Shown here one piece after another: positions 9,653 through 27,869 of a stretch of 64,000 nucleotides of DNA. Source of the stretch: Roseovarius sp. A-2. Its GTDB lineage: Bacteria > Pseudomonadota > Alphaproteobacteria > Rhodobacterales > Rhodobacteraceae. A model generated the notes under the pieces. That model saw only the letters and a list, made by a program, of their open reading frames with translations, was not told the origin of the DNA and did not search any database. The stretch covers positions 1-64,000 of the forward strand of contig NZ_BDIY01000021.1 of assembly GCF_002072155.1 (NCBI RefSeq), given 5' to 3'. Both the position numbers and the translations under genes were made by a program. Each line of letters starts with the position of its first letter. The first letter of the stretch is position 1.

Positions 9653-10692
9653 TGGGTGTCGTGAGTTTTCTCGTGGAAGCGGCTGACGAAGGCCTGGAAA
9701 CCGTCGCTGAATCCCAGTTCGCGGCGATCACCTCCGGGATGGGAGCCGCGGTGATGCTGGCTGCCACGCTGGCGATTATCCTCCTGTTCGTAAACATGGC
9801 TTATCAGTTCAAGCCCATGGATATGAACGATCTTATCCCGCTTCTGATCAAGATCGGCCTGATCAATGCCTTCGCTTTCAACTGGGTGAATTTCAACGTG
9901 GTCAGCACCTTCATCACCGATGGCCTCGACAACCTCGCAGGCACGATCCTCGGCTCGATCACAGGAGAGACCGGCGCCGGCGCGGCCTATTTCGCGGGGC
10001 GGTTCGACCAGGTGCTCGACGATCTGGCCGATCATGCCAACGCCATCGGGGATAGCTTGCCATGGATGGCAGGGGCGTTGCTGAGCCTCTTCTTCACAGC
10101 CCTGCTGGCACTGGTCGGCGGTGCTGCGGGCGTTATCCTGGTGCTGGCCAAGGCAATGGTGGCCTTTCTCATCGGTCTTGCACCGGTGATGATCGCGATG
10201 TCGCTATTCCGTGCAACGCAGGACTATTTCCAGCGCTGGCTGGCGGCAATTATCAGCTGGTCGTTCTACCCGGTGGTGATCGCCGGAACGATGTCCGTCA
10301 TCTTCGGGCTTTTCAGCGTGCTCCAGAGCCGGGTTGGCGGCGTCGAGAACCTCGGTCGCATCGGTGCGGCCTTGCCTTTCCTCGCTGTCGTCATGGTCTC
10401 TCTGGGCATGGTCCTCGCCATTCCTGTGATCGTGCGGACTTTGACCGGCGATATCAATTCGGGATGGGCGGCCTCGGTCGTTGGGGCGGGTATCCGCAAG
10501 ATGACGCAGCCGCAGAGGCCACAGCAAAGGAACCAGTCGCCTACGAACACGACAAGCGACACGAGCCGGAGGTTGAATGCCGGGTCGGACACACCACGCA
10601 CGCAGGCCTCTGCACGCGATCAGCGCCCTTCGACCGGCACGGGGGCAAAGATGCAGCGTATGAAAGACCGTGCCGACAGGCTGGGTGACTGA
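9652..10692 (+). CDS. VirB6/TrbL-like type IV secretion membrane protein
   Basis: A 346-residue protein with at least six hydrophobic segments (for example 33–52, 140–190 and 200–265) and the VirB6-like central region with ‘FLIGLAPVMIAMSLFRATQDYFQRWLAAIISW’-type character. The last 70 residues are hydrophilic and rich in Gln, Thr, Ser and Arg. VirB6 forms the inner-membrane channel of type IV secretion systems. No other channel genes occur in the element, so this is an orphan, perhaps used to engage or block a helper system. It ends just before the first of the paired hairpins. Confidence 0.8.
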   Translation: MGVVSFLVEAADEGLETVAESQFAAITSGMGAAVMLAATLAIILLFVNMAYQFKPMDMNDLIPLLIKIGLINAFAFNWVNFNVVSTFITDGLDNLAGTILGSITGETGAGAAYFAGRFDQVLDDLADHANAIGDSLPWMAGALLSLFFTALLALVGGAAGVILVLAKAMVAFLIGLAPVMIAMSLFRATQDYFQRWLAAIISWSFYPVVIAGTMSVIFGLFSVLQSRVGGVENLGRIGAALPFLAVVMVSLGMVLAIPVIVRTLTGDINSGWAASVVGAGIRKMTQPQRPQQRNQSPTNTTSDTSRRLNAGSDTPRTQASARDQRPSTGTGAKMQRMKDRADRLGD

Positions 10693-11096
10693 TCGGGAGT
10701 CCGTGGGAGCGGGCGTTCCGCTTCGTTTCCGCACTTCTTCCGGTGCCAGACGGATGTGCTTTCATCTTCTCCCAAGTATCTACCGTGTGCATTCGGTCAA
10801 CATCCCTGAGTATCAGTAGCAAGGGCCTTGAGCGTGGAGACACCAAATATCGGAACGCTCAAGGCCCTTGCGGATTCTACCGAGCTGCCGTTCGTGCATC
10901 GCGCGGCGAAAGCTGGCTGTGAGCCCAACTCGGACATGGCAAAGTTATGCTGCGTGCGCTCGCAGCGCAAATTTTGTCGTAATTGCAAAGGCATCCATGC
11001 TGCATGACAGAGCGAATAGCAGCCGTTAAACCCAGTGGTGACCGGCATCCAGCACCGCCTCACTCCTGACACCCGAGATCAGCTTGCATCAAATAC
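10693..11096. other. Intergenic around the left hairpin
   Basis: 404 bases between the VirB6-like gene and the aldehyde dehydrogenase stop. Apart from the hairpin at 10816–10873 I see no gene. The right half (10880–11090) has no motif I recognise. Confidence 0.45.
10816..10873 (+). repeat. Paired 58-base hairpin element, left copy
   Basis: A perfect 17-base inverted repeat (GCAAGGGCCTTGAGCGT and its complement) encloses a 19-base loop that begins GGAGAC and ends AAATATCGGA. A second copy at 24612–24669 is identical at 52 of 58 positions and in the same orientation. One stem pair has changed in both arms (C–G here, T–A there). The two copies bracket the catabolic cassette. It may be an RNA structure (ncRNA or terminator) or a recombination site. 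Confidence 0.85.
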
Positions 11097-12536
11097 CTAC
11101 CAAGCCGCTGAAATATATTGAGTTTCCATGAACTCGAGCATGCCGTCTTTGCCACCTTCGCGGCCAAGTCCCGATTGCTTGACACCTCCGAATGGAGCTG
11201 CGGGATCGGAAACGATACCTCTGTTTAAGCCAACCATCCCAAATTCAAGCTGCTCGCAGACGTTCAAAGCCCGTTTCATATTCTTCGAGAAAACGTAGGC
11301 TACCAAGCCGTATTCTGTGTCGTTTGCTCGGCAAATGACCTGGTCTTGATCTGTAAATGATTGGATGATCGCGACCGGTCCAAAAATCTCATCGTGAATA
11401 CAATCGGCATCATCGGGCACATTCGATAGTACTGTAGGGGTATAAAAATAGCCGGGTCCTACAGGAGCGTATCCGCCTAACTCCACTATGGCTCCCTTTG
11501 CGACAGCATCTTCAACTAGTCTAGCGACCTTTGTTCTCGTTGCCTCATTTACCAATGGACCAACATCGCTACGCTGATCCGTGCCATCACCTAGTTTCAG
11601 CTTACTCATCCTTGCCACGAACTCAGAAATAAACTCAGCAGCGATGTTTTCGTGCAGATAGATTCTGTTTGCGGCAGTGCACGCCTCACCCAAATTGCGC
11701 ATTTTGGCCTGGAAAGCACCTTCAACCGCAATATCGAGATCGGCATCTTCAAAAACGATCAGCGGCGCATTCCCTCCAAGCTCCATGGCTGGGTTGAGGA
11801 CTTGACCCGCTGCGTTGCGCAACAATTCTTTCCCAACACTCGTTGAGCCAGTAAAGCTCACAACGCGAATACGCGGGTCGTCCATTATGTGATCAACGAG
11901 TGCACCGGGGTGCGTTGTTGGCAGCACATTCACGAGCCCGTTTGGGACGCCGGCCTCCTCCAACACGGGCATCAATGCGAGCATGGTAAGCGGTGTCTCG
12001 GCCGCTGGCTTTATGATGACCGCACAACCTGCTGCGAGTGCGGGGGCGATTTTTCGCGTCCCCATCGCGGCAGGGTAGTTCCACGGCGTGATCAAAAGCC
12101 CAATTCCGGCAGGCTTTTGTTGGACGAGGATCCGAGCCCCGGAAGAGGGGGCATGGCTGATGGTTCCTTCAGCGCGTACCGCTTCTTCAGAAAACCAGCG
12201 AAAGAACTCCGCCGCATAACTAGCTTCGCCAACAGCGTCAGCGGAAGCCTTTCCGTTTTCCAGACTAATTAGATGTGCGAAATGTTCGATCCTTTCACTC
12301 ATAAGATTGAAAGCCCGACGTAAGACTTCTGAGCGATACCGCGGGGTTTCAGAACGCCAAAGCGCCATCGCTCTCTCTGCTGCATCCAGCGCCCTGTCGG
12401 CATCGGATAAATCAGCTGAGGCCACTGAGGCGATGACACGTTCATTGGATGGGTTGACGACGTCGAAGCGCGTGCGAGAGGCGCTTTCGACCCATTTTCC
12501 GTCAATGTAAAGGTTTGTGAGGTTCACTGGTCCCAC
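11097..12536 (-). CDS. NAD(P)-dependent aldehyde dehydrogenase (succinate-semialdehyde dehydrogenase-like)
   Basis: A 479-residue member of the aldehyde dehydrogenase superfamily, full length for the GabD branch. Visible features are the cofactor-binding segment TPWNYPAAMGTRKIAPALAA, the SFTGSTSVGKEL loop, the general base Glu in AMELGGNAP and the catalytic Cys in GEACTAANRIY. It oxidises an aldehyde to a carboxylate with NAD or NADP. It is the last gene of a leftward run with the uronate-dehydrogenase-like, SMP-30 and threonine-aldolase genes, so it most likely handles an aldehyde made in that pathway. The true substrate cannot be read from sequence. Confidence 0.9.
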   Translation of the reverse strand: MGPVNLTNLYIDGKWVESASRTRFDVVNPSNERVIASVASADLSDADRALDAAERAMALWRSETPRYRSEVLRRAFNLMSERIEHFAHLISLENGKASADAVGEASYAAEFFRWFSEEAVRAEGTISHAPSSGARILVQQKPAGIGLLITPWNYPAAMGTRKIAPALAAGCAVIIKPAAETPLTMLALMPVLEEAGVPNGLVNVLPTTHPGALVDHIMDDPRIRVVSFTGSTSVGKELLRNAAGQVLNPAMELGGNAPLIVFEDADLDIAVEGAFQAKMRNLGEACTAANRIYLHENIAAEFISEFVARMSKLKLGDGTDQRSDVGPLVNEATRTKVARLVEDAVAKGAIVELGGYAPVGPGYFYTPTVLSNVPDDADCIHDEIFGPVAIIQSFTDQDQVICRANDTEYGLVAYVFSKNMKRALNVCEQLEFGMVGLNRGIVSDPAAPFGGVKQSGLGREGGKDGMLEFMETQYISAAW

Positions 12537-12554
12537 TTTCGTATCTTGCCGCGG

Positions 12555-13367
12555 TCAGCAGGCTTTGAGGGCGGCATCTGAATCGCCGGAGAAACCAACA
12601 TCACACGCTCCCCCTCCCTGAGTGATACCCCCGAGTGGTCCCAATTGCTTGCCCGTGGCTCTTACCTCGTCGAGATAGTCTTCGGCATCGGATGAAGGGC
12701 GATACCCGAGCCAGGCGACATGTGAATTGTCGACGCGACTGCGCGTATTGTTTGAAACACCAAACACCCGATAATAGTGGTGATCCGGGGCGTCGATCGC
12801 GCAGTTGAACAGATGAATTCCATCGTCAAAGCTCAACCAAGTGGACAGCATCCTTTCGTCAGTCGGTCTTTCTTCAAAGGATGCAATGCGCAAGCAGCCG
12901 ACGCTTAGCCCATATTTGTCTGCATAGAGGCTTCCCAAAGCCTCACCGAACGCCTTTGAGACGCCATAGAAGCCACTCGGCTTTATGCGCACATCATCGG
13001 TAATCGTTGTGGCGAGAGGGTGGAACCCGACCGCCTGCACCGAACTTGCATATACAAAGCGTGTCACCCTGGCTTGGCGGGCCGCTTCGAATGCTGTCCG
13101 TGTGAGATCATAGTTCAGCGGGAAAATCGTTTCCCAGTCGGCTTCTTCCGGAAAAGCGGCAAGATTGACGACGACATCGACGTCCTTCATGGCCAGGATC
13201 AACGCATCGAGATCGGTCGCATCAATATTGCATATCTCCTCGCGCTCAGCAGCGACTCCAAGCGGCGCAATATCAACAAGGCGCAATATTCTGTCCGGGC
13301 CCGCAAGGCCTGCCCGCAAGACTTTTCCGATACGCCCGGCCGCGCCGACAAGCAAAATTCGTTTCAT
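12555..13367 (-). CDS. NAD-dependent sugar dehydrogenase of the uronate dehydrogenase (Udh) type
   Basis: A 270-residue short-chain or epimerase-fold protein. The Rossmann motif GAAGRIGKVLR is at the N-terminus, the catalytic YGVSK is in the middle, and the Udh-like stretch RMLSTWLSFDDGIHLF and VDNSHVAWLGYRP follow. Udh enzymes oxidise C1 of aldoses or uronates to lactones. The ATG at 13367 (MKRILLVGAAG) is chosen because the Rossmann strand begins there and GGAAAG precedes it; upstream in-frame codons are not family-like. Next to an SMP-30 lactonase it completes a dehydrogenase–lactonase pair. The last 30 residues extend beyond the usual family length. Confidence 0.82.
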   Translation of the reverse strand: MKRILLVGAAGRIGKVLRAGLAGPDRILRLVDIAPLGVAAEREEICNIDATDLDALILAMKDVDVVVNLAAFPEEADWETIFPLNYDLTRTAFEAARQARVTRFVYASSVQAVGFHPLATTITDDVRIKPSGFYGVSKAFGEALGSLYADKYGLSVGCLRIASFEERPTDERMLSTWLSFDDGIHLFNCAIDAPDHHYYRVFGVSNNTRSRVDNSHVAWLGYRPSSDAEDYLDEVRATGKQLGPLGGITQGGGACDVGFSGDSDAALKAC

Positions 13368-13413
13368 ATTCTTTCCCATAGCATTCGAGTTGGTGTCTGT
13401 TGGTTCGGTTGCG

Positions 13414-14307
13414 CTACCCTGCAAACCGGTGCATTGGCAGCCCACGCACCCCGGGGCAGTACGCAAACAATCCACCCGCGAGCGGTTGCTCGTTGAGCTG
13501 CTGTTCGGTCAGGTCTTCCGTAGCTGTCGTGATGAAGAGGGTCGACATATCCTCACCGCCAAAAGCACAGGAGGTCACATTCTCAACGGGTAACAGCACT
13601 GTGTCGAGCACCTCCCCTTCAGGAGAATACCTCGTGACTCTCGAACCGGCAAAATGCGCACTCCAAAGGCATCCTGTTTCATCGACAGCGGCGCCATCAG
13701 GTCGACCCTGGTTCGGAGGGACCGTCGCGAAAATTCGCCCGTTGGAGATCGTTCCGTTCTTCAGATCGTAATCATAGGCCATGATGTTGAGCGTTGGCGT
13801 ATCGGTAAAGTACATCGTTTGCCCATCCGGACTCCAGGCGAACCCATTGCTGGTCTTGATGCCAGAGAGTTCCTTAACTACGGAATGATCACCGTCTACT
13901 CTGTAAACCGATGCAATCGGCTGGCGAAGCGCTGGATCTGAGACCTCGTGAATACTGCCACACCAAAACCGCCCCAGGGGATCACAAGCGCCGTCATTCA
14001 TACGGTTCTGCGGGTGCGGGCGTTCAGGGTCGGCGAATAGGTCGAACGCGCCGGATTCGAGGTTAAAAAATGCAAATCCGTCCCGAGTCCCGGCGATCAA
14101 CTTGCCGTCTTGTTCACACAAGGCAATTGCACTGAATTCATCCGGTGCCGCGAACTTTTCCAATTGCTGTGTTTTCGGATCGTATCGATGGATAATTTTC
14201 TCAGTGACATCCACCCAGTAAAGAGCTTTCTGCTCTTCGTCCCAGAGGGGGCCTTCGCCCAGCGTGTTGCGCTCATTCACAACGCATGTCGGTTTGTCGA
14301 TGTTCAT
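13414..14307 (-). CDS. SMP-30/regucalcin-family sugar lactonase
   Basis: A 297-residue six-bladed beta-propeller of the SMP-30/gluconolactonase family. Family landmarks are the metal-ligand Glu in LGEGPLWDEE, the Asn and Asp of QNRMNDGACDPLGRFWCGS, SNGFAWSPDG with its metal-site Asn, and the Asp in RPDGAAVDETG. These enzymes use a divalent metal to hydrolyse sugar-acid lactones. The gene ends 46 bases upstream of the Udh-like start and begins three bases after the threonine aldolase stop, so the lactone is presumably the Udh-like product. Confidence 0.9.
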   Translation of the reverse strand: MNIDKPTCVVNERNTLGEGPLWDEEQKALYWVDVTEKIIHRYDPKTQQLEKFAAPDEFSAIALCEQDGKLIAGTRDGFAFFNLESGAFDLFADPERPHPQNRMNDGACDPLGRFWCGSIHEVSDPALRQPIASVYRVDGDHSVVKELSGIKTSNGFAWSPDGQTMYFTDTPTLNIMAYDYDLKNGTISNGRIFATVPPNQGRPDGAAVDETGCLWSAHFAGSRVTRYSPEGEVLDTVLLPVENVTSCAFGGEDMSTLFITTATEDLTEQQLNEQPLAGGLFAYCPGVRGLPMHRFAG

Positions 14308-14310
14308 TCT

Positions 14311-15396
14311 TCAGCTCCTTCCTTCAACCAACCTGCCAATTACCGTCAGGGCCGCCTCAATGTCATCGGAGTTCAATCCCATATGGGTGACAAAGCGCAG
14401 ACGATTTCCTTTTGGAGGCAACACGCGGACACCAGACTGATACAGTCTCTTATGGAGCGACGCAGGCTCGCCGAGTTCTTTCGGCAAAAAGGCCATAACG
14501 ATGTTTGTTTCCACTGTTTCGACGGCAACTTCGAAACCCAACCCGTCCAAGCCCAAAGCGAGCGCCTTCGCATTGCTATGGTCTTCGTGTAGCCTTCTCA
14601 GGTTTTCCTTCAGGGCAAAGTGTCCCGCAGCGGCCATAATTCCCGATTGCCGCATGCCGCCACCCACCATCTGCCTCCAGTGCCGCGCTTCCTCGATGAA
14701 GTCCCTGGAACCTGCGATCATCGCGCCGCCAGGGGCGCCCAACCCCTTCGAGAGGCAGAAACTCACACTATCAACAGGAGCGACCAAGTCAGAAGGATCT
14801 ACTGAAAGCGCAACCGCAGCGTTAAACAATCGAGCCCCGTCCATATGGAAGATCAGATCGCGTTCATCCGCGAACCTTTTTAGCTGATTGAGATAGGGCT
14901 TGTCGAGGCAACGGCCTCCTTCTCCATTGTGCGTATTTTCCACACAAATCAGCTTCAAGGGTGGCGTAAGAACCGACCGAGGCGCATTCGGCGAGGGGGC
15001 CTTTGCGAAGTTCATGAGTTCGCCTAGATCGAACTTTCCCCCGGGCGTTGAAAACGCTTGTGATGTAATCCCGCAAATCGAAGCCAAATGACCAGTTTCG
15101 TTGACATGCAAATGGGATGTAGCGCTCACAATTGCCGAATGACCCGATGGAACCTGCGACCTGATGGAAACCAGATTGCCCATCGTGCCACTGAGGACAA
15201 ACAGGGCGTCTTCCTTGTCGAGTATCGTCGCCGTCAAATCCTCCAGCGCGCGAATTGACGGGTCTTCTCGATAAAAATCATCGCCGACCTCCGCTGATGC
15301 CATGCGCTTGCGCATCGCGTCGCTCGGCGACGTGAGTGTGTCACTGCGAAAATCGAAAATCTGTTCGTTTGAAGCATCCAGCACTTGCGCCACCAT
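14311..15396 (-). CDS. Threonine-aldolase-family PLP enzyme
   Basis: A 361-residue fold-type I PLP enzyme of the beta-eliminating lyase/low-specificity L-threonine aldolase family. It has the N-terminal FRSDTLTSPSDAMR, the TMGN phosphate-binding motif, ENTHNGEGGRC, FHMDGARLFN carrying the PLP-nitrogen Asp, and the Schiff-base Lys in SFCLSKGLGAP. The family splits beta-hydroxy-alpha-amino acids into glycine and an aldehyde. It is the first gene of the leftward operon, facing the Lrp-type regulator. In this setting it may release glycine and a sugar-like aldehyde from an imported hydroxy-amino acid. That substrate is an inference. Confidence 0.9.
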   Translation of the reverse strand: MVAQVLDASNEQIFDFRSDTLTSPSDAMRKRMASAEVGDDFYREDPSIRALEDLTATILDKEDALFVLSGTMGNLVSIRSQVPSGHSAIVSATSHLHVNETGHLASICGITSQAFSTPGGKFDLGELMNFAKAPSPNAPRSVLTPPLKLICVENTHNGEGGRCLDKPYLNQLKRFADERDLIFHMDGARLFNAAVALSVDPSDLVAPVDSVSFCLSKGLGAPGGAMIAGSRDFIEEARHWRQMVGGGMRQSGIMAAAGHFALKENLRRLHEDHSNAKALALGLDGLGFEVAVETVETNIVMAFLPKELGEPASLHKRLYQSGVRVLPPKGNRLRFVTHMGLNSDDIEAALTVIGRLVEGRS

Positions 15397-15539
15397 CCCC
15401 TCATGATCCTGCGCTTGAAGTTAGCATGACCCCTATTGCCGAGTAGCACTTTGAGACCGCCTTCTTGAAACATTCGATCATTCATGCTCAACTTATCGAT
15501 CAAAGATTTCACAACAGTCATCAGAGGAGGCGTTTGAGA

Positions 15540-16025
15540 ATGTCAAGGAGACCGAGTGGCTTGGACCAGATTGACCGCAAGATTCTGAACCGATTGCAGC
15601 GCGATTGTCGGATCACGAATGCTGATCTGGCCGCCGAGGTTGGCACGTCGGCACCCTCGTGCATGCGCCGCACAAGGCGCCTCAGGGCGGAAGGCTACAT
15701 CGAAAGAGAGGTTGCCTTGGTGAATCCGGAGAAAGTAGGCAGCACCCTCATCTCCATCTCCGAAGTTAAGCTCAACAATCACGAGCGCCAAGCCAGGGAT
15801 AACGCGATCAGGCACATCAGGAGCATTCCAGAAGTTACATTCTGCCTGAATGTTACTGGCGACCGCGACCTGATGTTCGTGGCCATGTTGTCGGACATGG
15901 ACGAGTTCGCAGAGAAGATAACGGAACCGTTGGCGGTCATTCCCGAAATAGCATCGATCAACAGTTACTTTGCGATCAAGACCATCAAGTTTGAACCCTT
16001 CTTGCATTTCGACGAGACAAGGTAG
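15540..16025 (+). CDS. Lrp/AsnC-family transcription regulator
   Basis: A 161-residue regulator. Residues about 8–55 form a winged helix-turn-helix (LDQIDRKILNRLQRDCRITNADLAAEVG), and residues about 75–150 the RAM ligand-binding domain (CLNVTGDRDLMFVAML). Such proteins form octamers that sense amino acids and wrap DNA. The ATG at 15540 has AGGAGG ten bases upstream. It is divergent from the threonine-aldolase operon and faces the oxidase–transporter operon, so it probably controls both in response to the imported amino acid or its products. An AT-rich inverted repeat lies downstream, before the oxidase gene. Confidence 0.9.
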   Translation: MSRRPSGLDQIDRKILNRLQRDCRITNADLAAEVGTSAPSCMRRTRRLRAEGYIEREVALVNPEKVGSTLISISEVKLNNHERQARDNAIRHIRSIPEVTFCLNVTGDRDLMFVAMLSDMDEFAEKITEPLAVIPEIASINSYFAIKTIKFEPFLHFDETR

Positions 16026-16094
16026 CCGAATGAAAAGGGGCTACCCTTGGGTTGATCAAGGCGTGTTTCCAAGGGCGACACACAATTCGGTCTT

Positions 16095-16144
16095 AATGAA
16101 ATATTTTTACATTAACGATGAACATTATATGAAAATATTTCATT
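16095..16144. promoter_or_regulatory. AT-rich inverted repeat upstream of the oxidase–transporter operon
   Basis: AATGAAATATTTT (16095–16107) and its exact complement AAAATATTTCATT (16132–16144) are 24 bases apart, about 75 bases before the oxidase start. Half-site centres are 37 bases apart, between three and four helical turns. The AT-rich composition stands out in this GC-rich genome. It is a good candidate binding site for the adjacent Lrp-type regulator. Confidence 0.6.
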
Positions 16145-16219
16145 TTCTAATTAATTTTGAACAATACAAACACCCCGTGACTGCGACACTCTTCCTCGAA
16201 ACTGGAAGGGTACGATGGC

Positions 16220-17494
16220 GTGAAAGAGCTTTGGAAAGCATCCGCTAGGAACTCATTTTCGGCGAATGTCCTTAATGCCGACATGGACTGCGACGTCGCG
16301 GTGATCGGGGGCGGCTACACGGGCTGTTCAACGGCCCTTCATGGCGCGGAGTTGGGTCTCGATGTGACGCTGCTGGAGGCAAGCACGCTTGGGGCAGGGT
16401 GCTCCGGCAGAAACTCCGGAAATCTGAATCCAGGTCTTTGGCTCACCAAAGAGGAAATATGCGCGCGTTTGGGGGAGAATTCTGGCAACAAACTCAACTC
16501 TCTACTGAGCAACGGGCCGACCGAAGTCAGAAAGCTCGTCGAGAAGCACAATATCGACTGTGAGTTCAACGCTAGCGGCACGTTCCATTGCGCGCGAGAT
16601 GGCCGGGGGCTGTCGGAACTTCAGGCCCGGGCTGAAAGTCAACGCTTACAGGGCATGGACGTGCAGGTCCTGGGGGCGGATGAGACAAAGAGACATCTCG
16701 GTACAGAGTATTTCCAAAGTTGCCTGTGGAACAGAGATGCCGCGTCAATTCAACCTTTGGCGTACCTGCGTGGCTTGGCCCAGGCCGCAACGCGTCACGG
16801 CGCCCGTATTTTCGAGAACAGCCCTGCCACGAAAATCGAACGTTCCGGCACTCAATGGTTGGTCCACACGCCGCGCGGCACTCTGACTGCACAGGCCCTG
16901 GTTGTTGCAACGGATGCGTACCATAGAGATACGAGGTTTGGATCAATCAACCCGATGTGGCGGCTCTGGTATTTCAATTGTGCAACCGACCCACTCAGTA
17001 AGGATTATGACCACATACTGCCGTCAAGGCAGGGGTGCTGGGATACCGGCCGTGTAATGACGTCGTTTACCAGAGACGTCGACGGCCGATTCATAATCGG
17101 GAGCGTCGGCAAGCTGGATTCGATATTGTCAGGAATACACCTGCGTTGGTTGAAGCGGAGATCAATTGAACTCTTTCCGGAATTAGGGCCAGTCCCGCTA
17201 GAATTTTCGTGGCATGGAAGCATGGGGATGACGCCCGACCAGCTTCCCCGTCTTGTCGATTTGGGACCCAGGGCTATTGGTTCCTACGGGTACAGTGGCA
17301 GGGGTATCGCGCCCGGAACGATGTTTGGACAGGCGATTGCCAACTATCTCCATACGGATGATCCAGACATGCTCCCGCTCAAGCTATCTCAAACCAGATA
17401 TTCTGTTCTCAAGAAGTTCCGCGAACCCTTTTACGAGATGGGTGCATTGGCCTGGCACCTCATTGGTGCCCGCAGTACCGGAGCAGCGCTGTGA
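16220..17494 (+). CDS. FAD-dependent amine/amino-acid oxidase (DAO family)
   Basis: A 424-residue DAO-family flavoprotein. The dinucleotide-binding motif VAVIGGGYTGCSTALHGAE begins about residue 27, the flavin-contacting SGRNSGNLNPG follows, and the FAD-binding C-terminus reads GSYGYSGRGIAPGTMFG. The overall pattern is closest to gamma-glutamylputrescine oxidase/OrdL-like proteins; glycine oxidase and sarcosine oxidase are relatives. It oxidises an amine or amino acid to an imine with oxygen or another acceptor. The start is GTG at 16220, preceded by AAGGGTACG. It overlaps the first transporter gene by four bases and so heads the importer operon. Confidence 0.88.
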   Translation: MKELWKASARNSFSANVLNADMDCDVAVIGGGYTGCSTALHGAELGLDVTLLEASTLGAGCSGRNSGNLNPGLWLTKEEICARLGENSGNKLNSLLSNGPTEVRKLVEKHNIDCEFNASGTFHCARDGRGLSELQARAESQRLQGMDVQVLGADETKRHLGTEYFQSCLWNRDAASIQPLAYLRGLAQAATRHGARIFENSPATKIERSGTQWLVHTPRGTLTAQALVVATDAYHRDTRFGSINPMWRLWYFNCATDPLSKDYDHILPSRQGCWDTGRVMTSFTRDVDGRFIIGSVGKLDSILSGIHLRWLKRRSIELFPELGPVPLEFSWHGSMGMTPDQLPRLVDLGPRAIGSYGYSGRGIAPGTMFGQAIANYLHTDDPDMLPLKLSQTRYSVLKKFREPFYEMGALAWHLIGARSTGAAL

Positions 17495-18264
17495 TCTCGG
17501 TGCGAAATATTGTGAAGGGTTTCGGTGGCGTTCGGGCGATCGATCACGCGTCATTCGATGTAGAGGCCGGCTCAATAACTGGTCTCATCGGCCCCAATGG
17601 TGCGGGCAAGACGACCATGTTCAACACTATCGCAGGTCATCATCGCGCAGATAGTGGGCAGATCGTTTTCCAAGGTGAAGACATCAGCGGTCTGCCGCCG
17701 CACGAGCTTTTTGCAAAGGGCATCCTGCGGACATTCCAGCTTGCCCACGAATTCCCGACATTGAGCGTTCTGGAAAATCTGATGATGGTTCCGGCAGAAC
17801 AATCTGGCGAGAGGATTTTAAACACTTGGTTGAATCGAAAGAAGATAAAGCACGAAGAGGCCGCGCTGCGACAGACAGCGGAAAGTGTCGTTGATTTCCT
17901 GAACTTGGACCATCTCGCCCATACACCGGCGGGAAACCTATCCGGCGGGCAAAAGAAGCTCTTGGAGCTCGGCCGAACAATGATGGTCGATGCGAAAATC
18001 GTGTTTCTCGATGAGGTGGGTGCCGGGGTCAATCGGTCCCTCCTCCGGGAAATCGGAACCGCTATCAAAAGGCTGAACGATGAGCGGGGTTATACGTTTT
18101 GCATGATCGAACACGACATGCAGTTTATTTCCCGCCTCTGCGATCCCGTGATTGTCATGGTCGAAGGCCGTGTTTTGACCACGGGGCGAGCAGATGAGAT
18201 CCTGCAAGACCCGGAGGTGATCGAATCCTACCTCGGTGCCACCGCAACAGAGGTGGTCACATGA
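17491..18264 (+). CDS. Branched-chain-type ABC importer, ATPase 1 (LivG-like)
   Basis: A 257-residue ATPase with Walker A GPNGAGKT (residues about 33–40), a Q-loop in RTFQLAHEFPTL, signature LSGGQKKLLELGR, Walker B IVFLDEVGAG and switch His in MIEHDM. The insertion between the Q-loop and signature and the C-terminal ‘EILQDPEVIESYLG’ are LivG-type features. It starts at a GTG overlapping the oxidase stop and overlaps the next ATPase by four bases. It powers uptake through the two permeases downstream. Confidence 0.92.
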   Translation: MISVRNIVKGFGGVRAIDHASFDVEAGSITGLIGPNGAGKTTMFNTIAGHHRADSGQIVFQGEDISGLPPHELFAKGILRTFQLAHEFPTLSVLENLMMVPAEQSGERILNTWLNRKKIKHEEAALRQTAESVVDFLNLDHLAHTPAGNLSGGQKKLLELGRTMMVDAKIVFLDEVGAGVNRSLLREIGTAIKRLNDERGYTFCMIEHDMQFISRLCDPVIVMVEGRVLTTGRADEILQDPEVIESYLGATATEVVT

Positions 18265-18965
18265 GTTTCTTCGGTGGATCCAATATGTATGGCGGCTATG
18301 GCCCCATCAAAATTCTCAACGGGTGTTCCATATCTGTCGAACCTGGAGAAGTTTCGGTCATTGTGGGGCCGAATGGCGCTGGAAAATCAACAGCAATGAA
18401 GGCCTTGCTTGGCTTGTTGGAGCTGACATCCGGCGACGTCTTCTTGGATGGGAAGTCCATTGATGCCCTGAATACGCGCCAACGGGTCATGGCCGGCATC
18501 GGCTTTGTGCCGCAGACCGAGAACATCTTCCCGGGGCTTACCGTTGATGAAAACCTGTCGATGGGCGGCTACCTTAGAGCGGATAGCGTCGCCGATACGA
18601 AACAGGAGGTTTTCAAACTCTTCCCAATTCTCGGTGATCGACGCAAGCAGCTTGCGGGAACGCTTTCAGGGGGACAGCGCCAACAGCTTGCAGTCGGCAG
18701 AGCTCTGATGACGAATCCACAGGTTCTCCTACTCGATGAGCCCACCGCGGGCGTATCGCCCAACGTTTCCGCGCAGCTCCTGTATGAAATCTCAAATCTG
18801 AAGACGCGGGACATGGCCATTATCATGGTCGAACAAAACGCGCGGCAAGCACTTGAGATCGCTGATACCGGCTACGTGCTCGTCATGGGCGAGAACAAGT
18901 TCACGGGAAGCGGCCCTGACCTTCTCAAAGACAGCGAAGTCAAAAAGACATTCTTGGGAGGATAA
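18261..18965 (+). CDS. Branched-chain-type ABC importer, ATPase 2 (LivF-like)
   Basis: A 234-residue ATPase with Walker A GPNGAGKST, LivF-typical GIGFVPQTENIFPGLTV, signature LSGGQRQQLAVGRALM, Walker B VLLLDEPTAGVSP and switch His replaced in context by MVEQNAR, as is usual for LivF proteins. It pairs with the LivG-like subunit as the heterodimeric motor. It begins MSFFGGSNMYGGYG, somewhat longer than standard LivF, with the start fixed by the four-base overlap with the preceding gene. Confidence 0.92.
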   Translation: MSFFGGSNMYGGYGPIKILNGCSISVEPGEVSVIVGPNGAGKSTAMKALLGLLELTSGDVFLDGKSIDALNTRQRVMAGIGFVPQTENIFPGLTVDENLSMGGYLRADSVADTKQEVFKLFPILGDRRKQLAGTLSGGQRQQLAVGRALMTNPQVLLLDEPTAGVSPNVSAQLLYEISNLKTRDMAIIMVEQNARQALEIADTGYVLVMGENKFTGSGPDLLKDSEVKKTFLGG

Positions 18966-18971
18966 TTCGGT

Positions 18972-19982
18972 TTGGAACTCGCAAACGCATTCCTGATTTT
19001 CGCCAACTACGTGCTGGTGCCATCAATAACCTACGGCGCGCAGTTGGCCTTGGGTGCACTAGGCGTAACTCTCATTTTTGGCGTCCTTCGTTTCTCTAAC
19101 TTCTCCCATGGCGAAATGATGTCTTTTGGAACGATGGTCACAATCCTGGTGACTTGGGTCTTTCAGAAGTCCTCCATATCGATCTACCCGCTTCCAACGG
19201 CCCTTTTGGCGCTGCCAATTGGCATACTTGCCACTGTCTGTTTCTCCTTGGCGGCGGACAAGATTGTCTATTCCTACTACCGAGAGGTCAAGGCCAAGCC
19301 CGTTATCCTGATGATGGCGTCATTGGGCATCATGTTTGTTCTGAATGGGGCCGTACGGCTGTTTGTCGGCCCTGGGGACCGGCAATTCTTCGACGGTGAA
19401 CGCTTCATCGTTACCGCCTCGGAGGTGAAGGCATACACCGGCTTGGCTGAGGGCGTCTCCATTCGCAGCACACAGGCAATCACGGTCTTTATATCGATCC
19501 TCCTGTTCGTACTGCTGTACTTATTCCTTCAGAAGACACGGGCAGGCACAGCCATGCGAGCCTATTCTGACAACAGGACGCTTGCAACATTATCCGGAAT
19601 CAACTCACAAGCCGTTGTCAGGATAACGTGGATTTTGGCGGCCTCGCTCGCTGTTGTTGCCGGGGTTCTCTATGGCCTCGACAAGAGTTTCAAGCCATTC
19701 ACCTACTTCCAGATTCTACTTCCCATTTTCGCGGCAACCATTGTTGGCGGTGTCGGCAACCCGCTCGGGGCGGTGGTCGGCGGGTTCATCATCTCGTTTT
19801 CCGAAATTGCGCTGACCTATCCCTATAGGAAAGTCGTTCTATACATCTACCCGGATATCGACCTGAACGGGTATATCCTCCAACTGGTTCCGACGGACTA
19901 CAAGTTCTCGATCTCGTTCACCATTCTCGTTCTGGTTCTGCTGCTCCGCCCGAGCGGCCTCTTTCGGGGGGTGAGCCTGTGA
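18972..19982 (+). CDS. Branched-chain-type ABC permease (LivH-like)
   Basis: A 336-residue integral membrane protein with about eight hydrophobic segments and the LivH family motifs GVLRFSNFSHGEMM near the N-terminus and GGVGNPLGAVVGGF near residue 255. It starts at a TTG six bases after the ATPase stop, preceded by GGAGGATAA, and overlaps the next permease by four bases. It forms half of the substrate channel. Confidence 0.9.
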   Translation: MELANAFLIFANYVLVPSITYGAQLALGALGVTLIFGVLRFSNFSHGEMMSFGTMVTILVTWVFQKSSISIYPLPTALLALPIGILATVCFSLAADKIVYSYYREVKAKPVILMMASLGIMFVLNGAVRLFVGPGDRQFFDGERFIVTASEVKAYTGLAEGVSIRSTQAITVFISILLFVLLYLFLQKTRAGTAMRAYSDNRTLATLSGINSQAVVRITWILAASLAVVAGVLYGLDKSFKPFTYFQILLPIFAATIVGGVGNPLGAVVGGFIISFSEIALTYPYRKVVLYIYPDIDLNGYILQLVPTDYKFSISFTILVLVLLLRPSGLFRGVSL

Positions 19983-21340
19983 CCCGGAATATCGCCTTGT
20001 TCGGAACCTTGTTTTTCCTCTTTATTGCGACTGGGTATCTACAGTCGTGGTCTGTCACTCTATCCATCCTGAACCTGTGCCTCATCTCTGCGGTCATGGC
20101 CCTCGGAGTAAACATCCAGTGGGGTTATGCCGGTCTCTTCAATGCCGGGATCATGGGCTTTGCCGCGGTTGGTGGAACCGCTGCCTTGCTCATATCGCAC
20201 CCGCCCATTCAAGGTGCGGTCGCAGCGGGGGGCAGTGGAATACTTGCTGCTCTGGCGATTTTGCTTGCCGCATTTGCCATCGTTGTTGGAGTGAGGCGCT
20301 TTGCGGCCCGCAAACTCCGAAGGCCCCTCGTTCTCATTGTTCTTCTCGCAAGCGTTCCGATCGCAGCTCGCGCGTTCTCTGGCGCGAAAGAGGCTATCGA
20401 GGCCTTTGAACCTGCGTCTTCTGGGTTCCTGGGCGGGCTGGGCCTTCCGATAATATTGTCATGGCCGATCGGCGGGGCCGCCGCCGCGGCCGTTGCCTAT
20501 ATCATCGGAAAAGTTTCGCTTGGACTTCGTGCGGACTACCTCGCGATCGCGACGCTAGGCATCTCTGAAATCCTCGTTTCCTTCTTTAAGAATGAAGACT
20601 GGCTAACGCGCGGGGTCAAGAACGCGACAGGACTGCCAAGCCCCTTTCCCCCAATCCAGAACTTACAGAACAATGGGTGGGTGCAAGACATCGCTGCATG
20701 GTTGAACGGCGACAAACTTGCGCAGATGTCGGATGCCCAGATGAATGCAGCTCTGAAATTGCATTCTGCCGAAGTCGCGTCCCTTATTGTGAAACTCGGT
20801 TTTGCAGGCCTGTTCGCCGCAGTTCTCCTTTTCTTGGTTCTTTTGAGCGAGCTGTCCCTGAAGTCACCTTGGGGGCGCATGGTCCGCGCAATTCGCGACA
20901 ATGAAACGGCTGCGGCTGCAATGGGCAAGAATGTCGGTGCCCGCCACATGCAGATTCTTGTTCTCGGTTCTTCAGTTGTGGGCATTGCAGGCGCAATGCT
21001 GGTCACGTACGAAGGCCAGTTCACTCCGAACTCCTACCTCCCTCTCCGCTACACATTTCTGATCTGGGTCATGGTGATCGTAGGCGGTTCAGGAAACAAC
21101 GCTGGGTCAATCTTCGGGGCATTCCTGATCTGGCTTGTCTGGATCCAGGCCGAGCCACTCGGGTTCTGGATTGTCGACATGGCGACAAGCTGGATGAATC
21201 AGGACTCTGACATACGTGCCCAACTCTTGGCCCAATCCCAGCATCTCCGATTACTCATCATGGGATCAATCCTTCTCTTGGTCCTGCGATTCAATCCCAG
21301 TGGATTGATACCAGAGCGCCCGCACAACCGGGCCAAGTAA
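19979..21340 (+). CDS. Branched-chain-type ABC permease (LivM-like)
   Basis: A 453-residue membrane protein of the LivM type: ALGVNIQWGYAGLFNAGIMGF near the N-terminus, the EAA-like loop around RMVRAIRDNETAAAAMGKN, and GGSGNNAGSIFGAFL near the C-terminus. It is longer than most LivM proteins because of an internal segment (residues about 215–270) predicted to be extramembrane. It starts at a GTG overlapping the LivH-like stop. It forms the second half of the channel. Confidence 0.9.
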   Translation: MTRNIALFGTLFFLFIATGYLQSWSVTLSILNLCLISAVMALGVNIQWGYAGLFNAGIMGFAAVGGTAALLISHPPIQGAVAAGGSGILAALAILLAAFAIVVGVRRFAARKLRRPLVLIVLLASVPIAARAFSGAKEAIEAFEPASSGFLGGLGLPIILSWPIGGAAAAAVAYIIGKVSLGLRADYLAIATLGISEILVSFFKNEDWLTRGVKNATGLPSPFPPIQNLQNNGWVQDIAAWLNGDKLAQMSDAQMNAALKLHSAEVASLIVKLGFAGLFAAVLLFLVLLSELSLKSPWGRMVRAIRDNETAAAAMGKNVGARHMQILVLGSSVVGIAGAMLVTYEGQFTPNSYLPLRYTFLIWVMVIVGGSGNNAGSIFGAFLIWLVWIQAEPLGFWIVDMATSWMNQDSDIRAQLLAQSQHLRLLIMGSILLLVLRFNPSGLIPERPHNRAK

Positions 21341-21363
21341 TAACTTTCAACATGGAGAGACCA

Positions 21364-22554
21364 ATGTACAGAAATATCATTTTGGCATCCGCGGCGGTCC
21401 CGATGCTATTGTCCAGCCCGGCCTTTGGCGAAGAAATCAAGATGGGCATCCTGCTCGGATTTACAGGGCCAGCCGAGTCCTTGGCCACGAATATGGCCCT
21501 ATCCGCAGAACTGGCCTGGCAGGAAGCGTCCAAGTCCGGCCTTTTGTTGGGCGGAGCGACAATTGTCCCGGTCCGTGGAGACAGTACCTGCCAGGACTCA
21601 AGCACAGCGGTTACAGCTGCCGAACGTCTTGTAACTTCGGAAGGTGTTGTAGGGATTATGGGACCCACGTGTTCCGGAATCACCGTGGCTGTCACCAAGA
21701 ATGTCACCGGCAACATCGGCGTGACAATGATTTCGCCGGCCGCAACGTCTCCGGCAATCACCGAATTGGATGACGGGGATTACACATTTCGCACGGTTCC
21801 ATCGGACGCTAGGCAGGGTGTCGTCCTGGCAGAATATGCTCTGGAAAGTGGTGTCGATACCGTCGCAGTTTCATATGTCAACGATGACTATGGAAAGGGC
21901 CTAAGCACATCTTTCGAGACTGCTTTTGTCGAACGCGGCGGCCAAGTGCTCATGAATGCCGCCCACGAGGATGGGAGAGGTGATTACTCCGCGGAAGCTG
22001 GCGCGTTGTCCGCCTCTGGCGCTGAGGTGTTGGTCGTATTTGGCCGATTTGACCAAGGCGGCCGAGGAATCATTCAGTCTTCACTGGATGTAGGCGCTTT
22101 CGAGAGTTTTGTCTTGGCAGACGGTATGATCAGCCAAGTTCTCCTTGATAACGTAGGGCCTGGGCTTGAGGGCGCATTTGGGACTCAGCCCGGAAGTTCA
22201 TCTGAGGCAGCGGATAGGTTCATTCAACTTGCATCTGAAGCTGGTTTCGACGGCGATGGCGGCTTCAGAGCAGAGTCTTACGACGCAGCTGCCGTATTGG
22301 CGCTCGCTCTTCAGGCAGCAGGTTCTGCAGACCGAGAAGCGATCCGCAATAACATCCGCAATGTATCAAACGCGCCGGGCGAAAAAATTTATCCCGGCGA
22401 ACTGGCGAAAGGTCTCGAAATACTGGGCTCAGGTGGAGAAATCGACTACGAGGGCGCGACCAGTGTTGTCTTCGACGAATTTGGGGAAGCTCCCGGGACC
22501 TATCGCATCTTCGAAGTGGTGGATGGAAAGTTCGAAGTGGTTGCAGTCAGATAG
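21364..22554 (+). CDS. Periplasmic binding protein for the importer (LivK-like)
   Basis: A 396-residue protein with a cleavable signal (MYRNIILASAAVPMLLSSPAFG, cut before EEIKMG). The mature part has the type-I periplasmic binding fold of LivJ/LivK proteins: IKMGILLGFTGP, GIMGPTCSGITVA and FAVSYVNDDYGKG-like strands. Family members bind amino acids, amides or other small organic ligands. The ATG at 21364 follows GGAGAGACC. It is the last gene of the oxidase–importer operon and is followed by a strong hairpin. Confidence 0.9.
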   Translation: MYRNIILASAAVPMLLSSPAFGEEIKMGILLGFTGPAESLATNMALSAELAWQEASKSGLLLGGATIVPVRGDSTCQDSSTAVTAAERLVTSEGVVGIMGPTCSGITVAVTKNVTGNIGVTMISPAATSPAITELDDGDYTFRTVPSDARQGVVLAEYALESGVDTVAVSYVNDDYGKGLSTSFETAFVERGGQVLMNAAHEDGRGDYSAEAGALSASGAEVLVVFGRFDQGGRGIIQSSLDVGAFESFVLADGMISQVLLDNVGPGLEGAFGTQPGSSSEAADRFIQLASEAGFDGDGGFRAESYDAAAVLALALQAAGSADREAIRNNIRNVSNAPGEKIYPGELAKGLEILGSGGEIDYEGATSVVFDEFGEAPGTYRIFEVVDGKFEVVAVR

Positions 22555-22588
22555 AGGCTTCCGATCAAACCGAACGTTTGCCACCGAT

Positions 22589-22619
22589 GCGCGGCACCTT
22601 ATCCTCCCGGGTGCCGCGC
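22589..22619 (+). terminator. Terminator hairpin of the importer operon
   Basis: A ten-base perfect stem, GCGCGGCACC paired with GGTGCCGCGC, 35 bases after the binding-protein stop. No long T-run follows, so it may act with a partner factor or stabilise the mRNA end. Confidence 0.6.
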
Positions 22620-22878
22620 TAAGTCAGACACTACATAGCTCAAATTGGCCCTTTCCGTCTAAATTGGTCTAAACGACCGCTTCGACGACATGCGTGGCAT
22701 CGCTACGACCAGCATGCCGCCAGAGCGAAAGATTTCTGCGTTAACAATGGCCGAGCCTGCAAAAGGTGGCTTTGTCCCGCATTCTTCCCCTTCGCAACCG
22801 TTGTGGTGGAGGTCCGCTACGCATAGTCCTTGGGGGAGTGCCGTCAGGCACGGGGGGCAGACAGCCCCTAGCTGGTCC
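22620..22878. other. Intergenic; nothing recognised
   Basis: No gene-like frame. It contains a short repeat (GTCTAAATTGGTCTAAAC) at about 22656 and a GC-rich stretch with small hairpins near 22830–22880. Confidence 0.35.
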
Positions 22879-23181
22879 TCACCCCTCCGAAGTCGCGGGT
22901 GACAGAAGCCGCGGATCGTAGTCGCTTGAAACCAAAACGAACTTCCGATATGTCGAATCCGCAAGGTAGACGGGCTCTTTTTCGGCAATCGCCAGAACAT
23001 CGTCGGTATGCCGCCTCAGAAAGCCGGTGGAGATCGGGGTCTCCTCCGACGACGGGTTGCAGCCGACCTTCAAGGTGATGGTCTGGCGGGCCAGCGTTTC
23101 AGCGGAAACCCCATCGTCCCGCGCCAGCTCGCATAGCCGCCCATAGAGGTCGTATGACAAGTTAAGGATCAAATCGGGCAT
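22879..23181 (-). CDS. Small hypothetical protein, possibly ribbon-helix-helix
   Basis: A 100-residue acidic protein. The first 40 residues (LILNLSYDLYGRLCELARDDGVSAETLARQTITL) have the strand-then-two-helices pattern of ribbon-helix-helix antitoxins and regulators; the rest is unassigned. The start ATG at 23181 has a weak upstream site. It lies between the importer operon and a structured non-coding region. It may be a plasmid-type regulator or an orphan antitoxin. No partner toxin is seen beside it. Confidence 0.5.
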   Translation of the reverse strand: MPDLILNLSYDLYGRLCELARDDGVSAETLARQTITLKVGCNPSSEETPISTGFLRRHTDDVLAIAEKEPVYLADSTYRKFVLVSSDYDPRLLSPATSEG

Positions 23182-23280
23182 CTTGCCATCCGTGTGGTTT
23201 CAACGGGCTATTCCATTGTGGCTAGTGGATGGCGTCCGCGCAAGCAGCATCCCCGTATATCCGGTCTGAAAAGCAGAAGG

Positions 23281-23466
23281 GGCGCGGCCAGCCGCGCCAC
23301 ATCTATTCTTGGAAGGGGGAAGGAGTTTCGGCTTCCTTGCCCCTGAAGCGAAATAGACAGGGCCGTGTCCTCGGCTACGCCTGCGGGCCGCACCCCCCCT
23401 GTCGATTTCGCTTCACCCCCATCCTCTCACGCTCGCCGCTCGGCAGGGGTAAGCGGGCGCTTACCC
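23281..23466. other. Densely folded non-coding region (four consecutive inverted repeats)
   Basis: In 186 bases there are four dyads. GGCGCGGC/GCCGCGCC has two bases between its arms (23281–23298). An imperfect GGGGGAAGGA/TCCTTGCCCC pair lies at 23315–23343. TGAAGCGAAATAGACAGGG (23344–23362) pairs with 23397–23415 with one mismatch. GGGTAAGCG/CGCTTACCC is perfect with a two-base centre (23447–23466). The region precedes a 52-residue ORF. The palindromes are seen; whether they form an oriT, a single-strand origin or a structured RNA is open. Confidence 0.7.
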
Positions 23467-23532
23467 TCCCTTCAATGATGAAGAGGGCGCGGGACGGGGT
23501 GCTTCGTGGATCAATGAAAACGGAGAGAAACC

Positions 23533-23691
23533 ATGCCGAGACAGGAAAGACTGGAAGCAAAGGCAAAGGCAATCAAGCGCATCCTCGATGCCAGGACGCG
23601 CGAGGTCGTCGGGTGGCTCTATGAATGGAACACCGGCGAGATACTGCCGCGCTGGAAGGACGGGCGCAGGGAGAAGGTCATTTACGAGTAA
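23533..23691 (+). CDS. 52-residue basic protein of unknown function
   Basis: Starts at an ATG preceded by GGAGAGAAACC and encodes a highly charged small protein (MPRQERLEAKAKAIKRILDA… WLYEWNTGEILPRWKDG) with a long basic helix followed by a Trp-rich segment. There is no signal peptide or recognised domain. The good ribosome site and balanced codon use argue that it is real. Its position right after the folded region suggests that region may be its leader or that both belong to element maintenance. Confidence 0.6.
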   Translation: MPRQERLEAKAKAIKRILDARTREVVGWLYEWNTGEILPRWKDGRREKVIYE

Positions 23692-23756
23692 GGCCCCGAG
23701 GCGCGCGTGGTTGCGTCCTTCGACGCATGGCATGACAAGTGGTCGGAAACCCTTGG

Positions 23757-24041
23757 TCATGCACGAACAGTTTGCGCCACAATGTCCGGGTGGCGCTCGA
23801 TCACCTTCAGGAGCAACACCGCAGCCCGATCCGGGCTGCGCCGTTTTTGCTCCCAATCGCTGATGGTGCTTTCTGCCAGCCCATACCGTTCAGCAAAAGC
23901 GGACAGGGTAAGCCCTTGCTGCTTGCGGATCGCGGCCACGTCAACGGTCTCGGGCACATAGACAGCGGCAGGTTCCGCATTGCCCTGTGCGATTTCCAGC
24001 GCCACCTTGGCGCTTTGGATCAGCTCTTTGCCGAAACTCAT
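23757..24041 (-). CDS. HigA/NadS-type antitoxin-like regulator
   Basis: A 94-residue protein of the NadS/HigA-like XRE family. The middle region IRKQQGLTLSAFAERYGLAESTISDWEQKRR is a clear helix-turn-helix, and the C-terminal LLKVIERHPDIVAQTV is the usual tail. Such proteins bind their own promoter and neutralise a RelE/HigB-like toxin encoded just upstream. That toxin gene is present only as its last 45 or so residues. ATG at 24041 chosen by the family start MSFGKELIQS. Confidence 0.85.
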   Translation of the reverse strand: MSFGKELIQSAKVALEIAQGNAEPAAVYVPETVDVAAIRKQQGLTLSAFAERYGLAESTISDWEQKRRSPDRAAVLLLKVIERHPDIVAQTVRA

Positions 24042-24042
24042 G

Positions 24043-24185
24043 CTAGTACTCCTTTCTTTTTCGATAGGCATCTGCCAGCGCGGGCAGGATGCGGGCCAGT
24101 TCATTGTGCTCGGCTTGGGTCAGGTTCGCCTTGTCGTTCTTTCCATAAATCGCCAGCATAAACACGGGAATGTCGTCGCAGAAGA
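24043..24185 (-). pseudogene. RelE/HigB-type toxin, 3' remnant
   Basis: The reverse strand encodes [34 protein letters not shown], which is the C-terminal part of RelE/HigB-like mRNA interferases that pair with NadS-type antitoxins. The N-terminal half is missing: recognisable sequence stops near 24185. The stop is two bases from the antitoxin start, the normal operon order (toxin first). The toxin is inactive, leaving the antitoxin without a partner. Confidence 0.7.
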
Positions 24186-24296
24186 ATTGCCGACATCTGA
24201 ATACGAGGAAAGGTTGGGCTGAGAATGTGTGACGATACCGAGAGGCGCCAGCGTTTGCAGGCATTTGTTCGATCCCAAGCCGGAAACGAACTGCCT

Positions 24297-24495
24297 GTCC
24301 GAAGGCATCCTGACAGTCACCTCCTGGATGACTGGGGTTTGTATGGGCTCAGGGACGCACGGATCGAATAACTGGTGAGTCGCTTGGCGCTGGATCACGG
24401 CCTGCGGGTGGCGGAAATCGAGGGGCTGATAGTCGAGGCGCTTGAACAGCGAATGCTTCGGCCTGAAAACGGTTGGCGTCACAGGCATTGTAGCG
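24297..24495 (+). pseudogene. Broken paralogue of the small protein at 32783
   Basis: Reading 24297 onward gives [23 protein letters not shown], a TAA stop, then LVSRLALDHGLRVAEIEGLIVEALEQR. This lines up along its whole length with the intact protein at 32783–32986 (RRLHPDSHELHDWPIYGPKDPEIANLVDALAYDHGLRVREIEEVILQALRAR). The in-frame stop and lack of a start mean it is dead. Two copies in one element suggest a family linked to this element type. Confidence 0.65.
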
Positions 24496-24611
24496 GTGAA
24501 TCGCTTTGATGAGCCGGCGCGTTCGGGAGCGCGGCGCTCCCGAACAGCCTGCATCTTTCCTAAAAGGTCTGACCTATGCACTCGGGTACTCGGCCACACC
24601 TTCGTGCAACG

Positions 24612-24669
24612 GTAGCAAGGGCTTAGAGCGTGGAGACCTCAAATATCGGAACGCTCCAAGCCCTTGCGG
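24612..24669 (+). repeat. Paired 58-base hairpin element, right copy
   Basis: The same design as 10816–10873: a 17-base stem (GCAAGGGCTTAGAGCGT with one A·C mismatch), a 19-base loop beginning GGAGAC and ending AAATATCGGA, and here a run of five T after GCGG. It is identical to the left copy at 52 of 58 positions, with one compensatory stem change. It lies between the toxin–antitoxin graveyard and the defence operon. Confidence 0.85.
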
Positions 24670-24884
24670 TTTTTGGCCGATTGCTCGACCGGGGCACGTC
24701 ACCCACAACCAGGGAGTGCTGCGCGATATATAGTTGCTCGCAAACCGTGTGTGGCTGACATGGCCCATGCCAAGGCCAAGCCAACGCGGACGACTACCTC
24801 TCCCAGAAATACTGTAGTATAGCACTCACCAGAGCAAACTTTCATGATCTGCTTGGTAGGTCGTACGAACTAAACAAAGTTCCA

Positions 24885-27634: not shown

Positions 27635-27869
27635 CCTATTCGTTCGAGTGTTGGTTACTCCCAACGGCAAGGCGGAGATCGAGCACTTTGCGGTTGTCGT
27701 TAAAAACCCGCACCCAACCCCTTCGTGTCCGAGCAGCGGCGGTTGAGTGGGCCATGTCGACCGTGTCTCAGCAGGCGACAATAGACAGAAGAAGACTGGA
27801 AGGTAACGAATTATTGCTTTTTTGCTGCGGCAAGAGTTAGTTTCCGTTTTAAAAGGAAAGTGCTGAGCA

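Follow-up and report, generated by a model that had tools for sequence, protein, structure and literature searches.

The present analysis concerns two similar hairpins in a 64,000-nucleotide stretch of the Roseovarius sp. A-2 genome (NCBI RefSeq assembly GCF_002072155.1, contig NZ_BDIY01000021.1, positions 1 to 64,000, hereafter the window), one at 10816–10873 (copy 1) and the other at 24612–24669 (copy 2), both on the forward strand. They lie in an island integrated at a tRNA-Ser gene (3571–3660), in which the 16 bp of the tRNA 3′ end (3645–3660, attL-like, the left end of the island) are repeated exactly at 33087–33102 (attR-like, the right end), both on the forward strand. Between these repeats come, in order, a tyrosine integrase (3693–4991, forward strand; Pfam Phage_integrase and Arm-DNA-bind_3), an MbeA-like relaxase (7060–9006, forward strand) scoring under the curated cut-offs of both Pfam (23.3 bits, cut-off 24.6) and NCBIfam (relax_MbeA, 141 bits, cut-off 500), TrbL as the final gene ahead of copy 1 (9652–10692, forward strand; Pfam E 5.9e-32), hairpin copy 1, a catabolic block (10927–24578), hairpin copy 2, and a defence-like module of an AAA protein and a Type IIG restriction-methylase (25136–31223, forward strand). 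By Pfam, the catabolic block encodes an aldehyde dehydrogenase, an epimerase, a gluconolactonase-like protein, a beta-eliminating lyase, an AsnC regulator, a DAO oxidase and a branched-chain-type ABC transporter. Because the hairpins sit at module borders, the island can be divided into mobility, catabolic and defence modules, and the proposal of a first-pass annotation of this DNA that the hairpins bracket a catabolic cassette agrees with this layout, copy 1 following trbL and copy 2 preceding the AAA protein and the restriction-methylase.

The hairpins are in direct orientation on the same strand and identical at 52 of 58 bases, as first described, and the reported switch of one stem pair from C-G in copy 1 to T-A in copy 2 is present. 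The 17-base stem attributed to both stands for copy 1 (17/17 pairs); copy 2 forms 16 of 17, with one A·C mismatch that had gone unmentioned. Each has a 19-base loop, GGAGACACCAAATATCGGA in copy 1 and GGAGACCTCAAATATCGGA in copy 2. Folded as RNA, copy 1 reached −36.7 kcal/mol on the forward strand (z −5.93) and −41.8 on the reverse (z −7.10), and copy 2 −31.5 (z −3.72) and −34.2 (z −4.99), with folding on either strand of both copies far exceeding that of shuffles. Chance does not explain the loop pattern, because loop plus inner stem, with up to three mismatches allowed, matched twice in the window against a mean of 0.00 in 100 shuffles. Across the whole genome (4.58 Mb), BLAST with copy 1 returned copy 2 (E 3.3e-16), an inverted self-match and two chance-level matches, and a covariance model matched strongly only at these two places (90.1 bits for copy 1, 89.5 for copy 2), its other matches being weak.

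Around copy 1 the hairpin is part of a composite element of about 150 bp (10774–10926, forward strand; positions 1–153 of a 154-position profile common to plasmid and genome relatives), in which a left part containing AAATATCTACCGTGTG and TTCGGTCAACA is followed by the hairpin and then by the first half of the right unit, an imperfect palindrome some 85 bp long (10876–10967, forward strand; profile E 1.9e-15). A diverged composite surrounds copy 2 (24579–24718, forward strand; profile positions 10–152, E 1.6e-28), in which the hairpin is well conserved and the flanks are diverged and do not match the flank profile of window-type loci (group B, below). Relatives of copy 1 occurred in 15 of 72,556 plasmid records and in 21 of 394 sampled genomes of the family; by profile about nine of the latter include the hairpin and the remainder have mainly the right unit. 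A search with the loop pattern gave 16 genome-contig stretches, one of which (L042; L numbers denote compared loci and stretches) was recovered by neither profile nor model. This right-unit palindrome occurs at many Rhodobacteraceae loci, sometimes following the hairpin and sometimes on its own, with sites at 10876–10967 and 2410–2498 in the window and in L022, L025, L027, L034 and L048 (1791–1875). A leader motif resembling the left part of the composite, AAATACTCTCGGGG, lies at 40191–40204 in the window and has five similar copies in the genome; the idea that it is very common in the order was set aside, this genome having only five copies and none of a stricter form.

Each window hairpin is a copy of a family of stem-loops of mobile DNA in which the stem is free in sequence but paired and the loop is nearly fixed. 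Marine bacteria have members of this family in transposons, plasmids, genomic islands and viral sequences, often directly next to exchangeable genes. A covariance model from 22 hairpins, run on the 394 family genomes at E <= 0.001, matched in 50 of them, mostly one to three times each and at most six; a 45-hairpin model run at E <= 1e-4 had matches in five of 385 class-level genomes, of which two lie outside the family, and in five of 299 phylum-level genomes, all from within the family, these two samples overlapping and weak matches being lost through the strict filters. Over 44 distinct hairpins 91.4% of cells are paired, 13 of 16 main-stem pairs vary on both sides and the loop stays close to GGAGACCTCAAATATCGGA, with entire stems swapped, for example AAGGCTTAGCAGCCC in place of AAGGGCATTGAGCGT. 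Cells changed on both sides numbered 156 against 55.6 in shuffles, a signal abolished by sliding the partners, in an alignment that was fitted to the structure and is biased towards pairing. The counts leave out the window's own place (L001–L003 and L014), identical alignment rows, and L036 and L042, which had no model match. The suggestion that the fold itself is under selection, first made from one compensated pair, is strengthened by compensation at so many stem pairs. The loop had also been said to match no described element, and none was found in Rfam, in literature titles and abstract starts, or in the main text of the paper on the IS1202 family (PMC10132070), from which the words hairpin, stem and passenger are absent. 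Rfam 15 gave nothing at 10816 or 24612 at gathering score and, for the copy 1 region at E <= 10, only sub-threshold matches; the titles and abstract starts among the matches listed, with few subscription papers reachable, contained nothing on such hairpins in Rhodobacterales, IS1202 or ISNCY elements.

The hairpin has its clearest native place in IS1202-family (ISNCY) transposons, in the non-coding DNA just inside their left end that separates the end repeats from the 3′ end of the transposase or from a passenger gene. In many loci it lies some 61 bp in from the left end, with ends such as TGTTGCAACCAAGTAGAAATGTCACC or TGTAAACACCATTCAG. Flank profiles placed 43 of 87 hairpin loci in group A (IS1202-type left end), 26 in group B (window-type) and 18 in neither, a count that includes copies and nested stretches and, among the 18, L069, entered at a wrong position, and L071, under the cut-off at E 0.42. 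An ISNCY transposase lay downstream with its 3′ end facing the hairpin at 22 of 61 loci by tblastn, some matches being partial and that of L123 being 3.6 kb off, and the transposase of L054 matched NCBIfam transpos_ISNCY_2 at E 7.5e-152. In Leisingera caerulea all four copies of an identical 2382-bp element have 5-bp target duplications and TGT...ACA ends; ends and duplications of this kind were also found at two of the four 1817-bp copies in G075, which are identical to one another, and at L140. Of 18 elements, 10 have a dif-like site next to their right end; with the ends as called, the spacing is 5 bp in eight of these and 7 bp in L132 and L136, and the other eight elements had no pattern match. 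Right ends were called via the dif pattern, and a duplication-based end search gave few results owing to offsets.

The same picture of ends, duplications and dif sites is given for ISAjo2-type, dif-targeting members of the IS1202 family, which also includes transporter members with an extra open reading frame (ORF), in the passages of PMC10132070 covered here. Features common to the hairpin carriers and the members described there are TGT...ACA ends with repeated inner motifs, a transposase around 450 aa long, duplications of 5 bp and, next to the right end, a dif-like site; some carriers also have a passenger ORF as the transporter members do. The window copies are unlike the family in having no transposase and no such ends, and no dif-like neighbour was noticed. 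No transposase was found in the examined stretches of window-type loci, nor did tblastn match near copy 1 or copy 2. A loose likeness by eye of the window left part to an IS1202 end was rejected, since a profile of IS1202 left ends matched 0 of 18 window-type left parts. At the level of sequence, the window copies and the transposons have in common the hairpin and a few bases next to it, not left parts or ends; the window hairpins may work as the transposon hairpins do, but an origin from transposons is not supported by the left-end profile. Between the loop and the rest of the element, no complementary or identical stretch of at least 8 was found in five insertion sequences (ISs). A lower-scoring hairpin (39 bits; L114, 3960–4026), from a different family of Alphaproteobacteria, lies within an end that by eye resembles IS21, not IS1202.

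Similarity among related ISs covers the left end and the hairpin, stops at most a few bases from its last pair and returns in the transposase. The small ORF between hairpin and transposase differs by type (L013, L102/L113, L118, L119, L132, L136), and L115, L117, L128, L140 and L141 have none. Among six rhizobial or Cereibacter relatives, four have a hairpin in the equivalent position but with a different loop, CGGCTGG-CCGGGTTGCAAG, while L190 is without a hairpin there and L193 has a different GC-rich fold; a 12-sequence alignment of the other-loop hairpin, eight of them short stretches picked by likeness to one of these relatives, has 14 pairs, four varying on both sides. The passenger of the Leisingera IS (L054, 4097–4822), a protein of 241 aa with no Pfam match, adjoins the hairpin. 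In two Agrobacterium stretches the other-loop hairpin is followed by the start of a protein 59% identical to this passenger over 73 aa; this relative, at 491–709 in L197, occupies the same place as the passenger does. Three loci (L110, L116, L123) have an IS1202-type left end and hairpin and then the right unit, with no transposase nearby, and are possibly transposase-less forms.

Plasmids offer a second setting in which cargo differs beside the element. A window-type composite adjoins the border of a cargo slot in six RepL/MobQ plasmids or contigs (L006, L007, L008, L043, L044, L048), whose backbones align at about 88–99.8% as far as a shared position within the right unit and align once more from a single position ahead of mobA. 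The slot, at 1661–4283 in L006, holds chromate genes in L006 and also in L044 (87%), an SRPBCC gene in L007, TetR and DoxX genes in L008 and merely 223 bp in L043; the L048 stretch includes its cargo only in part. This slot is sharply bounded, with crossover points in palindromes and not in the hairpin: the left break is the centre of the palindromic right unit, the right border has a related half unit, and cargo starts about 45 bp past the hairpin, within the second palindrome. Annotation of three of the plasmids (L006–L008) shows no recombinase, in a table that is incomplete. For RepL plasmids of Rhodobacterales (PMC9025767), the likeness lies in the composite at the slot border of these six relatives; the passages covered of that paper do not mention the hairpin, and the window copies are instead in an integrated island. 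A covariance-model search had been proposed as a check of whether copies flank different cargo, and they do, in these six and in the passenger slots of IS1202-type elements. The wider link to cargo borders stands only in this respect, as no recombinase is tied to the site and the distances from hairpin to junction differ.

Presence of the hairpin does not follow from the type of island. TrbL relatives occurred in 88 of the 394 family genomes, and the hairpin was absent from 29 of 30 related TrbL loci, the sole exception being the window's own, so that the hairpin is not fixed in such islands and its candidacy as a constant component of them was ruled out. The same loop is found on unrelated stems in loci without IS1202 ends (L074, L108, L120, L129, L130). 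In viral contigs two strict loop patterns gave no match; a looser pattern matched 11 (L205–L215), of which 10 score as hairpins, with five distinct cores, and one (L208, 14.7 bits) does not. Named phages gave no match. In these mosaic contigs the loop hairpin sits between small exchangeable genes. On the opposite strand an open frame of at least 79 codons ends with TAA 22–23 nt before the loop in all 10 hairpins, and in most of them a GAAAGGA-like site and ATG come next.

Patterns detected are consistent with a boundary or 3′-end element of mobile DNA, read through its loop, at places where modules meet, a function suggested by position and to which we would give a probability of roughly 0.45, short of an even chance. 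The loop would be read by a protein or a partner nucleic acid, either as RNA or as extruded single-stranded DNA, and the element would act at module junctions, for example in ending, trimming or protecting incoming transcripts, while the hairpin itself would not recombine. Pairing that is kept despite exchanged stem sequence, around a near-constant loop, is a strong sign of specific recognition; the fixed loop points to a specific reader, and since transposons, plasmids, islands and viral contigs with little else in common have the hairpin, it is probably read by some factor of the host or the element. Support for the boundary role comes from the compensated stem and fixed loop, from the place near the transposase 3′ end in ISs, the 3′-end place in viral contigs and the genes converging on the element from both sides at copy 1 and at the annotated loci L009–L011, and from the modules beside the hairpin, which differ in RepL plasmids and in ISs. 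On this reading, genes would turn over beside the hairpin because it is constrained and the adjacent DNA is not. The hairpin offers a mark by which borders of mobile modules can be searched for in Rhodobacteraceae, and it adds an apparently unnoticed part to alphaproteobacterial IS1202-family members, which seek dif sites and carry passenger genes.

Several observations weigh against a boundary or 3′-end role. The RepL copies in L006–L008 sit between two genes of the same direction, and orientation relative to neighbouring genes is inconstant, gene calls near copy 2 being made by a rough ORF score and ambiguous. L012 and L020 retain the flanks with much of the hairpin lost, so that it is dispensable there. 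At least five T within 9 bases past the stem were found in 5 of 59 bacterial copies on the forward strand and 1 of 59 on the reverse, in a count that used 31 of the 32 group A copies and placed copy 2, L041 and L047 under group B though they are neither A nor B by flank profile; automatic stem ends were misplaced for some viral copies, for which separate inspection was preferred. Because T runs after the stem are rare, most bacterial copies are not intrinsic terminators. The place in ISs could equally mean a role in transposition. We nevertheless rank a boundary or 3′-end role first, a role at transposon ends second and an exchange site third.

It is possible, though in our judgement unlikely, that the hairpin serves IS1202-type transposition, by binding of the transposase or of a target-site protein or by shielding the element from outside transcription, in which case the window copies would be remnants or borrowed pieces of IS1202-type ends. 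This would account for the constant place of the hairpin inside the left end in many ISs and for the other-loop hairpin at the same place in rhizobial relatives, and by eye the right unit is common to some transposase-less copies of both kinds (L110, L116 and L123, and the window type). It would not account for the window-type left parts, none of the 18 matching the IS1202 left-end profile, for the lack of a transposase in the examined stretch of every window-type locus tested, or for same-loop hairpins in viral contigs and elsewhere without such ends; moreover the described Acinetobacter members appear, from the lengths given in the covered part of PMC10132070, too short to fit the hairpin in addition to end repeats and gene.

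More doubtful again is that the hairpin or the neighbouring palindromes are a recombination site, attC-like, Xer-like or a linker for homologous exchange, at which genes would be added or exchanged. Integron attC sites and dif modules are folded or palindromic sites adjoining swappable genes, and the element resembles them in lying beside exchangeable genes; it has no attC-like core by eye and no linked integrase, and its cargo junctions fall at no fixed hairpin base. The sharp cargo borders in the six RepL plasmids or contigs, the likeness between ISs that ends at the last bases of the hairpin and resumes in the transposase, and the catabolic block flanked by two direct copies would all fit, as would the viral contigs L205 and L212, which are alike (93%) over the 400 nt ahead of the hairpin and have nothing in common in the 400 nt after it, other viral pairs being mosaic. 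Against this, only two copies are present in the window and their flanks differ, and free DNA next to a constrained hairpin would yield the same picture with no recombinase. The first-pass annotation had suggested that cargo could be loaded at the hairpin by a recombination system; this is not supported, given the three RepL annotations showing no recombinase in their incomplete table, the 29 of 30 TrbL loci without the hairpin, and junctions that vary, at the last bases of the hairpin in ISs and about 45 bp further, at the right-unit centre, in RepL plasmids. A broader proposal, which we hold to be speculative and at long odds, is that of a cis-acting device dedicated to marking or fixing the edge of exchangeable DNA, recognised by way of its loop and shared by dif-hunting transposons, RepL plasmids, islands and phages, genes being gained or swapped alongside.

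Production of a small RNA or other discrete transcript from the element seems improbable: loop and pairing are conserved in an RNA-like manner, but copies occur in many unrelated contexts, also directly after stop codons. An ordinary intrinsic terminator repeat, which the GC-rich stem, the frequent position close to gene ends and the several viral contigs that read stem then TTTTCTAT on the opposite strand would suggest, is very improbable given that most copies have no U tract, that the 19-base loop is conserved over unrelated stems and that copies per genome are few. The common chromosomal terminator repeat named at the outset as the finding that would refute the first proposal is likewise at odds with the number of matches, which were present in 50 of 394 family genomes and usually numbered one to three per genome, and with the rarity of T runs in bacterial copies. 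Outside the island, in the urease region of the window (44767–45056), Rfam matched the 5′ ureB antisense RNA at 105.6 bits.

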